DNA from: Lactococcus protaetiae
GTDB taxonomy: Bacteria > Bacillota > Bacilli > Lactobacillales > Streptococcaceae
Assembly (NCBI RefSeq): GCF_006965445.1
Contig: NZ_CP041356.1
Span: 1,922,001 to 1,986,000, forward strand
Reading direction: 5' to 3'
Length of the DNA stretch: 64,000 nucleotides
A model generated the notes under the pieces. The model was not told the origin of the DNA and ran no database searches. It worked only from the letters and a program-made list of their open reading frames with translations. How positions within the stretch are numbered: the stretch's first letter is position 1; each line of letters opens with the position of its first letter. Positions 1 through 14,513 of this stretch are shown piece after piece. The position numbers were made by a program, and so were the translations under genes.

Positions 1-897
1 AGTCGAAATTCTTTCGCCTTTTTCATTTTCAATCGCCATAAATTCATTTTGCGCATAGAGTGTGAAGCGTTGTCCTTTCTCATCTTCAACAACAATCGTT
101 CCAATATCAAACGCTTGATGAGTATATCGCATACGCTTTGACACCACACGCCCTCGCGCCACAATCTCGCCTTTTGTTTCCTTCACGATTTCATCAATCA
201 CATGAGCGCCACCTTTTTTCTCCGCCTTGATGATGGTGTGACCCAGATGAATCGCCTGAGATAAACCACCGATGACTGCATTTTCTTTGACATATTTCAC
301 AGGCAAAGGATGTCTCGCTGTCGCAATGAAGCCGCCGCCTTGATCAGAAGCTGCACGCAATATCTTTGAAGTCGTTTTTGAAGCACCTTTGACTACGACT
401 TCAACATATTTCCCTGTTTCATGCTTTCCTCCAACCGCCGCCTGAGTTGTGATATATTCTGCTCTGGAATTTACCCCAATATCTCCCATTTCTCCAGTAG
501 GATGAGCGCGAATATCTCCCGTCACATCAACAATATATAGACCCAGAGCAGCGGCTGTTATCCAGCCATTCGTTGATGAAGACTTCCCATTTTGTGGCGT
601 CCATAAACCAACAATTTTCTCTGAAATTTGTTCCTGTACGAGCTGAACAGCCTTGATATAGTCTTTCCCCTGCATTTGCCAGTCTGTCGTGCCAGCAGGT
701 GCTCCAATCGCCGTTTGAGTCAATAAAGTTGCATCATCAGGCAACTCATCAATCGAGATGAGATGAACATCGCCTAGTGACAAAGCAGCATAGCCCATCT
801 CAAGTCCATGCTCATAAAAAGCACCACCGCCAGAAGCAAAGACTGCTCCACCTTTTACCGCTGCCAATACATCTGTTTTCGTTAATTTTCTCACCAT
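1..897 (-). CDS. S-Me-THD/DUF917 family protein (C-terminal end off the window)
   Basis: The reading frame is open from the ATG at 897 to the window edge, giving 299 residues of an incomplete protein. It shows the DUF917 layout: a glycine-rich N-terminal loop (ASGGGAFYEHG, near residue 22), LPDDATLL, an IGAPAG turn, then DVTGDIRAHPTGEMGD and a late LYAQNEFMAIENE segment. Pfam now names this domain for S-methyl thiohydantoin desulfurase. The start codon overlaps the stop of the upstream urocanase-like gene by one base (TAATG), so the two are translationally coupled. I infer that it acts on a hydantoin-like product of that enzyme. The specific substrate is not shown by sequence. Confidence 0.8.
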   Translation of the reverse strand, partial: MVRKLTKTDVLAAVKGGAVFASGGGAFYEHGLEMGYAALSLGDVHLISIDELPDDATLLTQTAIGAPAGTTDWQMQGKDYIKAVQLVQEQISEKIVGLWTPQNGKSSSTNGWITAAALGLYIVDVTGDIRAHPTGEMGDIGVNSRAEYITTQAAVGGKHETGKYVEVVVKGASKTTSKILRAASDQGGGFIATARHPLPVKYVKENAVIGGLSQAIHLGHTIIKAEKKGGAHVIDEIVKETKGEIVARGRVVSKRMRYTHQAFDIGTIVVEDEKGQRFTLYAQNEFMAIENEKGERIST

Positions 898-2531
898 TAG
901 AGTTTCACCCTCCGAATTCCTTTTTTCTCTATCTCATCTAGTGAACGCTCATAGCCTGCATCCGCATAGCGCAAGACACCAAGACTCGTATCATTATCTA
1001 AAGCCAACTTCAAACGCTCAGCCGCCTCTGCTGTGCCATCTGCAACAAGCGTTAATCCTGCAGACTGCATATAACCAGCGTAGCCGCCACCTCCAGCATG
1101 AATGGCAACCAAATCTGCTTTTGAGCTACTTGCCACCATTGCATTGATTAAAGGCCAATCAGAAATGGCATCTGAACCATCCTTGAGATGTTCGGTCATA
1201 ATATTGGGATGGGTCATTGCTCCCGCATCCAAGTGATCTCTCGTAAAAGCCACAGGTGCTTTTAATTTTCCTTCTGCGACAAGTTGATTGACCGCTAAGG
1301 CTAACTTCGTGCGCTCTCCGTGTCCTAGCCAGCTGATTCTAGCAGGCAAGCCTTGCACGGGAACATATTTTCCAGCGAGTTTTATCCAATTTGTCACGAT
1401 TTCATTATCTGAGAAATTTTTGAGCAAATAGTCATCAATCAACTCAATATCCTCTACTTCACCTGATAAAGCAATCCAGCGGAATGGACCGATTGCTCGC
1501 TCAAACAGTGGACGTAAGAAGGCTTCTGTAAAAATAGGAATCTCAAAAGCATTTTCTACACCATAAGCCTTAGCTTGAGTTCGGATATTATTTCCATTAT
1601 CAAAGACGATAGCACCCTGCTCCTTAAACTCTAAAATCGCACGGACTTCTTTAGCCAGACTCTTTCCTGCCTTATCAATCACTTCGTCCGGATTGGCTTT
1701 GCGTAACGCTGCAAGATCCGATAATGCAATGCCCTCTGGAACATAGCCATAGAGCAAATCATGTGCTGCTGTTTGGTCACTGACAATATCAGGGATAATC
1801 CCACGATTGAGCAGTTCAGGATAGATTGTTGCTGCATTAGCAATTAAACCAATAGAAAGTGGCTTTTTAGCGCTCAGAGCTTCATCAATCCAAGTCAAAG
1901 CTTCCTCCAAATCATGCATCTTTCTTTGTAAAAAGCCTGTCGCAATCCTCTTATCCGCCTTGCTCTCATCCACATCGACATCTAATATCACGGCGCCAGC
2001 CATCACACCAGCCAAAGGTTGTGAGCCTGACATCCCACCCAAACCTGCTGTCAATATAAATCTTCCTGCAAGATTACCCTCAAAATGCGCTCTAGCAATG
2101 GCTTGAAAGATTTCGTAAGTCCCCTGAATCACTCCCTGAGAACCAATGTATTGCCAATCTCCTGCGGTCAAACCTCCCCACATCGTCAGATTTTGGTCAT
2201 AAAGCTTATAAAACTCCTCGCTATTCGCCCAATGACCCACTAAATTACTGGTCGCCATGATGACAAGTGGGGCGTCTTTATGTGTTTTTAGTAGACCAAT
2301 TGGCTTGCCAGATTGAATAATCAATGTTTCATCTTCTTCAATCTGCTTTAAAATATCTACAATCGCATGATAGCTTGGCCAATCACGCGCTACCTTACCA
2401 ATTGAACCATAAACCACCAAATTTTCTGGGTCTTCAGCATTTTCAAGATTATTTTCCAATAATCTAAGAAGTGCTTCTTGTCGCCAACCCTTTGCGCGAA
2501 GTTTATTTCCGCGTTGTGCAGTAATAGTCAT
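897..2531 (-). CDS. urocanate hydratase-like protein with divergent active site
   Basis: The 544-residue protein has full-length bacterial urocanase architecture, including the NAD+-binding region LTAGLGGMSGSQPLAG (about 160-175), DQTAAHDLLYGYVPEG (252-267) and DGSDAISDWP (451-460). Several hallmark positions differ from classical HutU as I recall it: the signature QGLPARICW reads QGLPARISW with Ser400 in place of the conserved Cys, MYGQMTAGSW reads MWGGLTAGDW, and the late HHGGG segment reads HAGGGGYAGYM. Classical urocanase hydrates urocanate in histidine degradation. Here the altered pocket and the S-Me-THD neighbour suggest a modified urocanate such as thio- or methylthio-urocanate. The upstream AGGTAAAG supports the ATG at 2531. 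No hutH, hutI or fhs gene is in view. Confidence 0.85.
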   Translation of the reverse strand: MTITAQRGNKLRAKGWRQEALLRLLENNLENAEDPENLVVYGSIGKVARDWPSYHAIVDILKQIEEDETLIIQSGKPIGLLKTHKDAPLVIMATSNLVGHWANSEEFYKLYDQNLTMWGGLTAGDWQYIGSQGVIQGTYEIFQAIARAHFEGNLAGRFILTAGLGGMSGSQPLAGVMAGAVILDVDVDESKADKRIATGFLQRKMHDLEEALTWIDEALSAKKPLSIGLIANAATIYPELLNRGIIPDIVSDQTAAHDLLYGYVPEGIALSDLAALRKANPDEVIDKAGKSLAKEVRAILEFKEQGAIVFDNGNNIRTQAKAYGVENAFEIPIFTEAFLRPLFERAIGPFRWIALSGEVEDIELIDDYLLKNFSDNEIVTNWIKLAGKYVPVQGLPARISWLGHGERTKLALAVNQLVAEGKLKAPVAFTRDHLDAGAMTHPNIMTEHLKDGSDAISDWPLINAMVASSSKADLVAIHAGGGGYAGYMQSAGLTLVADGTAEAAERLKLALDNDTSLGVLRYADAGYERSLDEIEKKGIRRVKL

Positions 2532-2639
2532 ATCTTTACCTAATTTCCATTGATTTAATCAGTGCTACTAACATTTCTGGCACAAAACATTCCCGATGAT
2601 GAAAGTAATCACATTAATTTTTTGTATATGTTCAAAATT

Positions 2640-2670
2640 TTAACATGAAAAAAATGTCTAAGACATCAGA
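2640..2670. promoter_or_regulatory. small palindrome upstream of the urocanase-like gene
   Basis: ATGTCTAAGACAT is a 13-bp palindrome (6-bp arms, about 2650-2662) lying 120 bp upstream of the urocanase-like start, flanked by A- and T-rich runs. It could be a repressor operator or a weak hairpin. The rest of the 2532-2710 gap shows nothing else recognisable. Confidence 0.3.
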
Positions 2671-2710
2671 TTTTTTGAAACTTGTGATAATTTTTAACTA
2701 TTGAGAAAAT

Positions 2711-2740
2711 AAAAAAAACAAGAAGTTATTTCTTGTTTTT
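2711..2740 (-). terminator. terminator overlapping the GH25 stop codon
   Basis: Arms AAAACAAGAA (2715-2724) and TTCTTGTTTT (2730-2739) pair around a short loop. In transcription direction a T-rich tract follows. The stop codon at 2726 lies inside the hairpin. Confidence 0.75.
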
Positions 2741-3538: not shown

Positions 3539-3575
3539 TAACTATATTGTAACAAAAGTTTCATCAAATGTCATC
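3539..3575 (-). promoter_or_regulatory. promoter placing +1 at the GH25 start codon
   Basis: Reading on the minus strand, the -10 TACAAT (3551-3546) has an upstream TG one base before it. ATGACA stands 17 nt further upstream as the -35. Only seven bases separate the -10 from the ATG, so +1 falls on or next to the initiation codon. Confidence 0.6.
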
Positions 3576-4706
3576 AAAACTCTCCAGATTCAAGAAGGAA
3601 CGTCTCAAAGACATTATTCCCTAATTCAAAACCTTTATCTGTCATACGAATTTGTTCGTGGTCATCATAAAGAAGACCTTGAGCGATTAATGTTTGCACT
3701 TGCTTACCATAGAGTTTTTCAAAAGATAAAGAAAACTTTGATTCAAATTTCATTACAGAAACACCTGATTTTTTTCGCAACCCAAGGAACATTTCTTCTT
3801 CAATCTTTGATTTTTTTGACAAAACTTCTTCATTAACTCTCTTATTAGTCGCTTCAAGATAATGGTGAACAGGTCCATGATTTTTGTAGCGAATCCCTCT
3901 AAATATCCTGAAGCACCAGCACCGACACCATAATATTCAGCATTATCCCAATAAGTAAGATTATGCTGACTTTCAAAACCAGACTTTCCAAAATTAGACA
4001 CTTCATAATGATTGTAGCCATTTTGCGCCAAGATATCCATGATATATTCATACATATCGGCATTTTTATCTTCATTTGGTAATCGCAAAAGTCCTCTACG
4101 CTGTCTATTCATAAACACCGTGTGGTCTTCTAGGATTAAACTGTAGAGTGCAACATGCGGTAACTTTAACGCAAGAAATTTTTTAACATCAGTTTTAACC
4201 ATATCCATTGTCTGATTTGGAAGCGCATAAATCAAATCAATTGTGATATTTTCAAAACCAGCCTCTCTCAACTTTTTTATAGATTCATAAACTTGTGCTT
4301 CAGTATGGGTTCTTCCAATTTTTTTGAGTAGTTGATTATCAAAAGTTTGAACACCCAACGAAATTCGATTAACTTTTGATTGAGCAAGAACCTCAATAAT
4401 TTCATCGGATAAATCACCAGGATTAGCTTCCACAGTGAACTCTTCTAAGACTTCAAGATTTAGATGTTCCGTAAGTTTTGAGAGAAGTTTACCTAATTGT
4501 TGTGCCGAAAGAACTGTTGGAGTTCCTCCACCAATATATAGTGTTTTTAATTCTTTGATATCATAAGCTTGATATTCTGCAATAAGTGCATCAATATAAT
4601 CATCAACAGGTTGTCCTTCCATCAACACTTTTGCGAAATCACAGTAATAACAAATATGTGAGCAAAACGGGATATGAACATAAGCAGCTAGAGGTTTTTC
4701 AGACAT
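3574..4706 (-). CDS. hemW: HemW-like radical SAM heme chaperone, one-base frameshift
   Basis: Radical SAM protein of the HemW (formerly oxygen-independent coproporphyrinogen oxidase-like) family. The [4Fe-4S] motif C15-x3-C19-x2-C22 sits in HIPFCSHICYYCDF, followed by the SAM-site GGGTPT. The frame is broken at the CCC at 3895-3897: upstream it reads to GASGYLEG, and the other frame continues RYKNHGPVHHYLEA and then the C-terminal EEEMFLGLRKKSGVS and LGNNVFETFL family motifs. Restoring one G gives GAG GGG ATT CGC and a 377-residue protein of normal length. The start overlaps the preceding gene by 8 nt. The loss is probably a sequencing error. Confidence 0.85.
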
Positions 4707-8577: not shown

Positions 8578-9471
8578 CTATTCTGGAAAACGATAACTTG
8601 TGATGCTCAAATCATTATAACGTTGCAAATAAAGCCTACGGCTTGTGACATCTACTGCACTTCGATAAACAGTATAGGTATCTGAGCGGCCATCTGATTT
8701 TGGTACAGTCACACCATTCAAAATATGCCAAGTTTCAATAACATTTTCTTGTTCATTTATAGGTAATATCGCTCTTTCTTTAAAAATAGCAGCACGAATA
8801 AATCGAGAAGTTGGTGTGAATCCTCCTGGAAATACTGGTTTACCACTGAAATTTCCTGTAGAAATATGATTTAGACCGACAGCCTGCTCTGATAAGTCCA
8901 TATAGGTAGCCAATTTTTCAACTTCGCGCTCAAACTTTGGAGCATTAGTTACCACACCGATTGGATTATCAATAATCACCAGCTTTCCTTCTCTCGGTTC
9001 AATATTTATCATTTGTCCAGTTGGATCGGTCGCCGAAAAATGCAGGTCATTACGCCCATACTTCATTTTTGCATGGTCATCTGTCATAAGTTGTACCTTT
9101 TTAATTTTTTCTCTAATGTCAGCTACTGACCGACAATTTCCCAATATCCACATGACAAATTCAAAAGCTGCAAGTTGAATTTTATTTCTGTCAGCACTGA
9201 CAGAATACTCCGAATGATTAGAGAATGTTAATTTTTGTGCTGCTAAACCAAATTCATTGACCCCATCAGAAATATCCGCATGATGCTCTGGTGAATCACG
9301 ACCCACACCTAAAATCGTATACAAATTTGTAATCAGATTTCCATCATACACCGCTCTCCATGTATAGTTTTTAGGTAAAACAAGCGGTTCAGCACTAAAA
9401 GTATGCCAATCCATAGTTCTTGCAAAAAGTAAGCTTCCATCACTTGATTTCATTTGAAAACTAGTACACAT
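8578..9471 (-). CDS. choloylglycine hydrolase / penicillin V acylase family enzyme
   Basis: The start is set at the ATG encoding MCTSFQMKS, because family members are N-terminal nucleophile hydrolases whose Cys2 becomes the catalytic residue after Met removal. GGGGAGATC precedes it. The protein is 297 residues, slightly short for the family (about 315-340). ARTMDW (Arg and Asp of the active site) lies near residue 17, and DGVNEFGLA and ITNA/VVTNAP-type segments follow. It hydrolyses amide bonds of conjugated bile salts or N-acyl compounds in the cytoplasm; the sequence does not decide between them. A CTGTCAG-CA-CTGACAG palindrome lies inside the gene at 9188. Confidence 0.82.
   Translation of the reverse strand: MCTSFQMKSSDGSLLFARTMDWHTFSAEPLVLPKNYTWRAVYDGNLITNLYTILGVGRDSPEHHADISDGVNEFGLAAQKLTFSNHSEYSVSADRNKIQLAAFEFVMWILGNCRSVADIREKIKKVQLMTDDHAKMKYGRNDLHFSATDPTGQMINIEPREGKLVIIDNPIGVVTNAPKFEREVEKLATYMDLSEQAVGLNHISTGNFSGKPVFPGGFTPTSRFIRAAIFKERAILPINEQENVIETWHILNGVTVPKSDGRSDTYTVYRSAVDVTSRRLYLQRYNDLSITSYRFPE
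9188..9203. repeat. iterated palindrome CTGTCAG-NN-CTGACAG (intragenic)
   Basis: CTGTCAGCACTGACAG within the acylase gene, encoding part of YSVSADR. It is one of six perfect 16-mers of this form in the window; the others are at 24218, 36901, 42161, 45340 and 46738. Confidence 0.9.
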
Positions 9472-9545
9472 GATTGATCTCCCCATATCATTTCTATTTT
9501 TGCCCTGTATCTTCCATACTATCAAAAAACTTCACTTTTTGCTTA

Positions 9546-13649: not shown

Positions 13650-14513
13650 TTAAGATAATTCTTGATAGAATAACGACGAGGTTGCATGATGAATAGACTT
13701 CGCGGTCTCAGCATTATTCATTGTATATAGATGAATACCGTCTACATCTTCTGTTGTTAAATCTATGATTTGGTCAATTGCAAACGCAATTCCTGCATCT
13801 TTCAAAGCAAGAGGATTATGCTCATACTTTTCTAAAATTCTAACGAATTTCTTTGGCAATGGGGTATTACAGGTTTTTAAAAGTCTAATCGCTTGATTTC
13901 GATTAACAATGGGCATAATTCCTGCAAGAATAGGAACCTCTATCCCCGCAATAGCACATCTTTCTTGAAAATCATAGAAAGTATTATTATCAAAAAACAG
14001 TTGCGTGATTAATTTATCACATCCTGAGTCAACTTTTTCTTTTAGATAATGAAAGTCTGTCACGCGGTTCTGAGATTCAGGATGAATGTCTGGATAACAC
14101 GCTCCTAATATTTCAAAAGTTTCATCATACGCTCTGATAAAACGGACTAAGTCACTTGCAAAATGAAAATCATTTTTGGTCGGTAAAGTTGTAATATCTC
14201 CTCTAAGCGCTAATATTTGGTGGATCCCCTTAGTTTTTAACTGCTCCAAAATCTCTTTCACTTGATTTTTATCTAAATAGGCAGCAGATAAGTGAGCCAC
14301 CGCAGGAATATTTAAAGTATTATTGACATAATCTGCTACTCTAATCGTAGTATGACCTATATCTGTACGATTATTATTACTACACGTTACACTTATAAAG
14401 TCTGGTGATAATTCTTTTAACTCATCAAGTGTCTTAAACAATTTTGATGTGCCTACCTCAGTATTTGGTGGAAACACCTCAAACGAAAGCATTTTCTTTG
14501 GATTGTTCACCAT
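13650..14513 (-). CDS. metF: methylenetetrahydrofolate reductase
   Basis: The protein is about 287 residues and reduces 5,10-methylene-THF to 5-methyl-THF, the methyl donor for the MetE reaction encoded just upstream. The N-terminal FEVFPPN, with the catalytic Glu, and the FAD-site segments LALRGD and KVDSGCDKLITQLFFDN are typical. The start is uncertain: ATG 14513 (MVNNPKK) or GTG 14528, both inside the 3' end of metE. The overlap indicates translational coupling. Methionine control through the MET-box before metE should cover both genes. Confidence 0.93.
   Translation of the reverse strand: MVNNPKKMLSFEVFPPNTEVGTSKLFKTLDELKELSPDFISVTCSNNNRTDIGHTTIRVADYVNNTLNIPAVAHLSAAYLDKNQVKEILEQLKTKGIHQILALRGDITTLPTKNDFHFASDLVRFIRAYDETFEILGACYPDIHPESQNRVTDFHYLKEKVDSGCDKLITQLFFDNNTFYDFQERCAIAGIEVPILAGIMPIVNRNQAIRLLKTCNTPLPKKFVRILEKYEHNPLALKDAGIAFAIDQIIDLTTEDVDGIHLYTMNNAETAKSIHHATSSLFYQELS

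Follow-up and report, generated by a model that had tools for sequence, protein, structure and literature searches.

A putative operon for ergothioneine uptake and breakdown in Lactococcus protaetiae

The stretch of DNA analysed here (the window) comprises 64,000 nucleotides of Lactococcus protaetiae, bases 1922001-1986000 of a 2.70 Mb genome assembled as one contig. Its left end opens on the minus strand with the first two genes of a predicted five-gene operon, all on that strand, for a hydratase, a desulfurase, a lyase and the two components of an importer. The first gene (window 897..2531) encodes a putative thiourocanate hydratase of the urocanase family, 544 amino acids (aa) long, and the second (window 1..897) a putative thiohydantoin desulfurase with the S-Me-THD (DUF917) fold. 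As described in an earlier note on this DNA, the two overlap by one base, base 897 being common to both open reading frames (ORFs). The desulfurase gene is cut by the window edge; 299 aa of the 367 aa encoded by the complete gene lie inside the window, and the rest of the gene is at 13794-14000 of a leftward extension, L002 (window position equals L002 position minus 14000). Further left, also on the minus strand, were found the genes for an ergothionase-like lyase of 507 aa (L002 12262-13785), beginning 8 bases past the desulfurase gene, for an EgtU-type permease fused to a binding domain, 522 aa (L002 10480-12048), 213 bases after the lyase gene, and for the importer ATPase, 316 aa (L002 9530-10480), which overlaps the permease gene by one base. 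The earlier note had suggested looking on this side for an ergothionase-like lyase, a hydantoinase and a carbamoylase; the lyase was found, together with the importer in the same direction, whereas the hydantoinase and the carbamoylase were not. Against the closest relative, genome G001, the ratios of nonsynonymous to synonymous substitution rates (dN/dS) of the five genes are 0.036-0.132, so that all five are under purifying selection at the sequence level. They are presumably read as a single transcript, and the G+C content of the operon is 0.412 compared with 0.366 for the window.

Three urocanase domains were recognized by Pfam on the hydratase, whose gene was the sole match in a PF01175 (urocanase) search of the entire genome. 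Amongst the NCBIfam models, the thiourocanate hydratase model NF058530 was passed with 975.1 bits (cut-off 930, E = 8.7e-294), whereas the S-methyl thiourocanate hydratase model NF058531 gave 756.8 bits, below its cut-off of 880. The E-value and the dN/dS range together indicate that the gene is not a chance reading. The closest solved structure, by both sequence and fold, was 7NED, the thiourocanate hydratase of Paenibacillus sp. Soil724D2, at 66-67% identity, compared with 45-52% for bacterial urocanases and S-methylthiourocanate hydratase (8Q9U and 8Q9V, 48-49%). The predicted structure has a mean predicted local distance difference test score (pLDDT) of 84.5, with weak stretches at residues 42-47, 96-103 and 116-127, and fits 7NED with a Z of 42.1 over 447 residues. 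Given that urocanases and S-methylthiourocanate hydratase reach Z 37.5-40.5, the fold alone discriminates little and the sequence discriminates more. The assignment as a thiourocanate hydratase is thus well supported by sequence, and the enzyme would be expected to act on thiourocanate.

The changes in signature segments pointed out in the earlier note are all present. The cysteine of QGLPARICW is replaced by Ser400 (QGLPARISW), a position occupied by cysteine in 29 of the 30 same-class HutU rows; MYGQMTAGSW reads MWGGLTAGDW, and HHGGG reads HAGGG. Ser400 as the mark of an altered site, nevertheless, had to be given up. Residue 400 varies amongst the 47 rows of thiourocanate hydratase type (Ala in 33, Gly in 8, Ser in 5 and Cys in 1), is alanine in one HutU row and is glycine in 7NED. 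Forty-four other positions separate the thiourocanate-type from the HutU rows at 90% or more in each group, amongst them W118, G120, L121, Q127, H404, H441, I444, M445, D473 and L474. A tree of 83 rows placed all 47 thiourocanate-type rows together on one side of a branch with a Shimodaira-Hasegawa-like approximate likelihood ratio (SH-aLRT) of 99; a second branch, with a value of 96, sets apart 30 HutU rows. The hydratase sits with the thiourocanate-type rows, outside HutU by both tree and alignment; a place inside classical HutU had been named in the earlier note as speaking against its reading. The tree was made by a quick method with long branches flagged; it does not include 7NED, and it omits the fragments L080, L081 and L085 and all but three of the type II urocanases of L008-L036.

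The desulfurase scored above the Pfam cut-offs of 27 for both S-Me-THD_N (54.9 bits) and S-Me-THD_C (96.5 bits). Its predicted structure (mean pLDDT 89.8) has one clear fold match, 2O3I, whose title is a locus name only (Z 34.5 over 336 residues, 21% identity), the next match being at Z 4.8. The thiohydantoin desulfurase model NF058529 was exceeded (571.4 bits, cut-off 440), and the S-methyl thiohydantoin desulfurase model NF058532 was not reached (281.7 bits, cut-off 450). That this protein is a thiohydantoin desulfurase is well supported by sequence, and it would catalyse the corresponding desulfuration. These scores bear on whether the substrate might be S-methylergothioneine, in which case the lyase would form S-methylthiourocanate, and the hydratase and the S-Me-THD protein would release methanethiol. 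The Pfam domain is named for such a reaction and both S-methyl models give matches, of 757 and 282 bits, but these fall short of the cut-offs while both unmethylated models clear theirs, and the S-methyl structures are well behind 7NED in identity; this route appears quite unlikely. Of the S-methylated or thiolated urocanate pathway put forward in the earlier note, the thiolated (ergothioneine) half is therefore retained, on the models, the tree, the lyase and the importer, and the S-methylated half is not. It was also observed that the desulfurase gene (L002 13794-14897, compared with L088 13200-14297) has the lowest identity to G001 amongst the operon genes, 86% against 93-98%, and is closer to the copy of Lactococcus hircilactis (88%). 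A MetQ-type gene adjoins the desulfurase gene in G001 and L. hircilactis, not in L. protaetiae. Replacement of the desulfurase gene through recombination is possible.

The best solved match of the lyase was ergothionase 6S7J (337 bits over about 480 residues; next match 183 bits). The sequence is distant from that of 6S7J/6S7Q, and the tripeptide that forms the 4-methylideneimidazole-5-one (MIO) group is missing in both. The source of the 6S7J and 6S7Q enzyme we take to be Treponema denticola. At the MIO site the lyase reads GEA-DLG, the Ala-Ser-Gly being shortened by one residue, as it is in all 23 readable lyases at hydratase loci (this one included); the tripeptide is complete in all 16 HutH-type rows (14 Ala-Ser-Gly, 2 Cys-Ser-Gly). 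According to PMC13405746, ergothionase has no MIO, and the lyase here is a member of the aromatic-lyase family without the MIO-forming Ala-Ser-Gly. The 23 lyases from hydratase loci and the 16 HutH rows lie on opposite sides of one branch in an unrooted tree with long branches flagged, in which one such lyase, L082, is placed beside the HutH rows; the lyase of L041, a fragment, was excluded from both tree and motif count. The lyase of L. protaetiae would release trimethylamine from ergothioneine.

Ordinary histidine use, by HutH and a HutU with a changed active site, is extremely unlikely. It could draw on the hydratase passing the HutU model TIGR01228 (710.8 bits, cut-off 375), a broad model, and on the lyase matching the HutH family, although the latter match is below the cut-off (275.8 bits against 539.15 for the histidine ammonia-lyase model TIGR01225). 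The hydratase, however, lies outside the HutU group and the lyase is without MIO residues. Neither hut nor fhs genes, which the earlier note had named as neighbours that would speak for classical histidine use, were present amongst the flanking genes scanned, save for the lyase itself as a HutH relative without MIO. HutH and HutU share protein families, and presumably reaction types, with the enzymes of this locus, but differ from them in tree group and signature residues.

The binding domain of the permease is closest to Listeria Lmo1422 (4Z7E) and to EgtUC entries (254-263 bits; next 172). Nine of the 11 ligand-contact residues of Streptococcus pneumoniae EgtUC, as listed in the accessible text of PMC9732360, are identical. 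The importer shares with S. pneumoniae EgtU the fusion of permease and binding domain and the accompanying ATPase; it differs in the replacement of Thr274 by Asn, in that of Asn339 by Asp and in its adjoining breakdown genes. Thr274 is excepted from the strongly conserved EgtUC residues in the same portion of that paper (PMC9732360). EgtU relatives (at least 49% identity) occur in 18 of 18 Lactococcus genomes, whereas the hydratase and the lyase occur in five, the same five, a coincidence with a chance of about 1 in 8,600 if kinship is ignored. The transporter is a predicted importer that would bind ergothioneine and bring it in.

Ergothioneine sulfonate, an oxidised ergothioneine for which a bacterial pathway has been reported, was also considered as the substrate. 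The paper on that pathway is cited by PMC13405746, and MIO-less lyases with urocanase relatives could fit it. The route is reportedly one that needs no thiohydantoin desulfurase, whereas here a desulfurase above its cut-off is encoded by a gene overlapping the hydratase gene, and the importer residues agree with those binding ergothioneine itself; we consider this substrate very unlikely.

The five genes very probably form an operon for ergothioneine uptake and breakdown, the hydratase and desulfurase being steps 2 and 3, encoded with step 1 and uptake. Ergothioneine, an antioxidant of mushrooms, would be taken up by the EgtU-type ATP-binding cassette (ABC) importer and converted by the MIO-less ergothionase-type lyase to thiourocanate and trimethylamine. 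The hydratase would add water to thiourocanate to give thiohydantoin propionate; urocanases use nicotinamide adenine dinucleotide (NAD+), and its use is expected here too. The desulfurase would then swap sulfur for oxygen, giving hydantoin-5-propionate and sulfide. Several observations weigh against this interpretation. The NCBIfam scan gave the lyase no ergothionase model, and its score is under the HutH cut-offs; its substrate is assigned from a single solved relative, a motif and the gene context. The aromatic-cage residue N339 is Asp355 in the binding domain. A promoter-like site was also found in the 213-base gap ahead of the importer gene, which may be transcribed separately.

A five-step bacterial ergothioneine catabolism was reportedly described by Beliaeva, Leisinger and Seebeck in 2021. 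As in that pathway, an ergothionase-type lyase, a thiourocanate hydratase and a thiohydantoin desulfurase are encoded side by side here. The L. protaetiae system differs in its Lactococcus host, in the importer in the same gene row and in that ErtD and ErtE (in NCBIfam, hydantoin-5-propionate amidohydrolase and N-carbamyl-L-glutamate amidohydrolase) were not found in locus or genome.

A sample of 395 Lactobacillales genomes yielded a single hydratase match above the cut-off, that of L. protaetiae, so the enzyme is uncommon in the order. A scan of species genomes revealed 51 loci in Lactobacillales, Bacillales and Pseudomonadota, of which 48 are of thiourocanate type (45 by tree and three fragments by identity only), L075, L076 and L078 clustering with HutU instead. 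With the L. protaetiae genome and G001 added, 50 loci were tallied. The flanks considered did not exceed 10 kb and were shorter where a contig ended (as at L069 and L080), and the threshold for ErtD and ErtE was 100 bits. Near the hydratase gene were found the desulfurase in 47 (all except L055, L080 and L084), the lyase in 24, ErtD in 33, ErtE in 38 and at least one of ErtD and ErtE in 39; only 10 of the 36 Pseudomonadota loci have the lyase nearby. Neither ErtD nor ErtE was found near any of the six lactococcal loci, compared with one or other near 39 of the 44 remaining loci (Fisher 2.9e-5, uncorrected for relatedness); the Bacillales locus L045 is also without both within its flanks. L116 aligned poorly and was left out of a later comparison together with L076, and L037, whose desulfurase has unread bases, was left out of the desulfurase comparison.

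Of four ErtD and ErtE proteins from the survey that were scanned with the NCBIfam models, one ErtE passes its cut-off, while the ErtDs reach 521 and 649 bits (cut-off 650) and the other ErtE 303 (cut-off 520). Genome-wide, each of eight Lactococcus genomes has one ErtD match, at 30-33% identity. In L. protaetiae, the only one of the eight for which the identity of the match was settled, it proved to be a dihydroorotase, with 698 bits on the model for that enzyme (cut-off 576) and only 197 on an ErtD model (cut-off 650); for L. insecticola and Paucilactobacillus suebicus, the ErtD search covered the loci only. ErtE was unmatched in the L. protaetiae genome, and its score did not exceed 33.5 bits in the seven other Lactococcus genomes. 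The ErtE model gave at most 42 bits for L. insecticola, P. suebicus, L. hircilactis, L. nasutitermitis and the metagenome-assembled genome L037, about 300 bits for L040 and L041 and 570 for Calidifontibacillus. At the sequence level, neither ErtD nor ErtE is thus recognisable in the L. protaetiae genome, and the five-step Ert pathway appears incomplete there.

Further features were noted at three loci of the survey. In L. nasutitermitis (L038 7172-11638), the hydratase gene is divergent from a desulfurase-lyase pair, with 192 bases between, and an EgtU relative lies about 9 kb off. In the L. hircilactis hydratase gene (L039 10001-11632), codon 505 of 544 is an in-frame stop, which may reflect a pseudogene, a shortened enzyme or an assembly error; a sulfhydrylase gene follows next downstream. 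Near the P. suebicus locus, two ORFs adjoin each other (L042 14258-16308), and the one scanned scored 42.1 bits for the uroporphyrinogen decarboxylase family, above the cut-off of 23.9.

Because ErtD and ErtE are not recognisable in the genome, the carbon-nitrogen skeleton would probably be discarded. A pathway stopping at hydantoin-5-propionate leaves sulfide and trimethylamine as its remaining products, and the usable gain would be sulfide, for fixation by the cysteine synthases of the cell. The shortened pathway would yield trimethylamine and sulfide, probably for sulfur. Elsewhere in the L. protaetiae genome, a cystathionine gene is paired with cysK and another cysteine synthase is encoded, and sulfur genes accompany several related loci. 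An O-acetylhomoserine sulfhydrylase gene separates the hydratase and desulfurase genes of L. hircilactis. Such a gene also lies upstream of the P. suebicus locus and just ahead of ErtD in Loigolactobacillus bifermentans (L158, beside L041), where the protein scores 576 bits on the family model (cut-off 495). With a limit of at least 50% identity, the enzyme occurs at three of nine Lactobacillales loci and none of 41 others. An NlpA/MetQ-type lipoprotein gene lies within the operons of G001 and L. hircilactis, the protein of the latter being over the Pfam cut-off and under that of the MetQ model. Two Lactobacillaceae loci are adjoined by cystine-type ABC genes with scores under the model cut-offs.

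A number of points count against sulfur as the benefit. The L. protaetiae operon itself holds none of these sulfur genes, the association was spotted after the fact, and a sulfhydrylase sought upstream of the Lactobacillus locus L040, in the next 5.5 kb (L157), was absent. Loigolactobacillus has the sulfhydrylase plus ErtD and ErtE, which means that the sulfhydrylase is not tied to pathway shortening alone. In view of the late sighting, the L040 result and Loigolactobacillus, the chance that ergothioneine breakdown is kept for sulfur is put at about even. The fuller proposal of a dedicated lactococcal sulfur salvage, with sulfide going to cysteine/methionine synthesis, hydantoin-5-propionate excreted and the EgtU-type uptake that would serve antioxidant storage in other lactococci redirected here to consumption, stands slightly below that. 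The same pathway could instead serve nitrogen supply, redox balance or detoxification, which competes only with the sulfur part and has perhaps a one-third share of our belief. ErtD or ErtE at the 39 non-lactococcal loci presumably carries the pathway on to glutamate there, and a distant or unrelated hydantoinase, which could escape detection, might finish it in L. protaetiae; on the other side, the only ErtD relative of the genome is a dihydroorotase over its own cut-off and ErtE is unmatched.

The intergenic stretch upstream of the operon on the minus strand (window 2532..2725), the presumed promoter region, carries the blocks TAAAAATTATCACAA and then TGTTAAAAT. Amongst six upstream regions compared, TAAAAATTATCACAA is found in L. 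protaetiae and G001 and, differing at a single base, in L. hircilactis; TGTTAAAAT is found in these three and L. nasutitermitis. Elsewhere the blocks are weaker or absent. The block WAAAAATTATCACAA was considered as a possible sulfur-regulator site and dropped. With at most one mismatch it has 31 places in three genomes (10, 12 and 9), where the reversed pattern has 4, 11 and 6. The ORFs downstream of 24 of these, read by eye with no family search, include no sulfur gene except at the operon, a further point against the sulfur role; one of the 24, L140, has no site at the expected position in a display of the plus strand only. The matches of an Rfam search of six loci at the gathering threshold were a ribosomal leader and a transfer RNA, with no riboswitch or T-box amongst them. 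Promoter-like sites numbered 26 compared with 17.3 (standard deviation 4.4) in shuffles, and terminator-like sites 6 compared with 7.0; neither was used in defining the operon.

The enzymes are of known kinds from a published pathway, and what looks new is that a lactic acid bacterium has it in a shortened, uptake-linked form. Searches of open-licence papers by titles and abstract openings, and in passages of PMC9732360 and PMC13405746, showed no earlier description of such a breakdown operon in lactococci. The loci place a likely route for consuming ergothioneine, in which trimethylamine and sulfide would be released, in Lactococcus and three Lactobacillaceae, and ergothioneine is suggested as a sulfur source. 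In the part of the EgtU study available, antioxidant use is stressed and Lactococcus lactis is named as an EgtU carrier (PMC9732360). The presence of EgtU relatives in 18 of 18 Lactococcus genomes, against breakdown genes in five, offers a way to separate likely consumers from likely storers amongst EgtU bacteria. According to the available text of a 2026 paper, ergothionase is limited to few genera in BLAST searches with the Burkholderia enzyme, and divergent homologues were possibly missed (PMC13405746); the loci described here carry divergent MIO-less lyases of that kind.

Further downstream of the operon are a deaminase, an acyl-ACP (acyl carrier protein) thioesterase, a HAD hydrolase and a GMP reductase, which are not pathway genes. 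In the window at 3574-4706 (minus strand), a HemW-type radical S-adenosylmethionine gene is split: a 317-aa ORF fits the HemW model no further than residue 280, and the HemN C-terminal domain is encoded by an 82-aa ORF that overlaps it in a different frame. The product of window 8578-9525 (minus strand) is a choloylglycine hydrolase family protein under the cut-offs of the bile salt hydrolase and penicillin V amidase models. At genome 1896-1906 kb (L150 238-9852), a series of ORFs on the minus strand looks like a surface-protein cluster, perhaps of the WxL type; four of them are 250-280 aa long, another has 393 aa, and a further one, of 1651 aa, is without a Pfam match.

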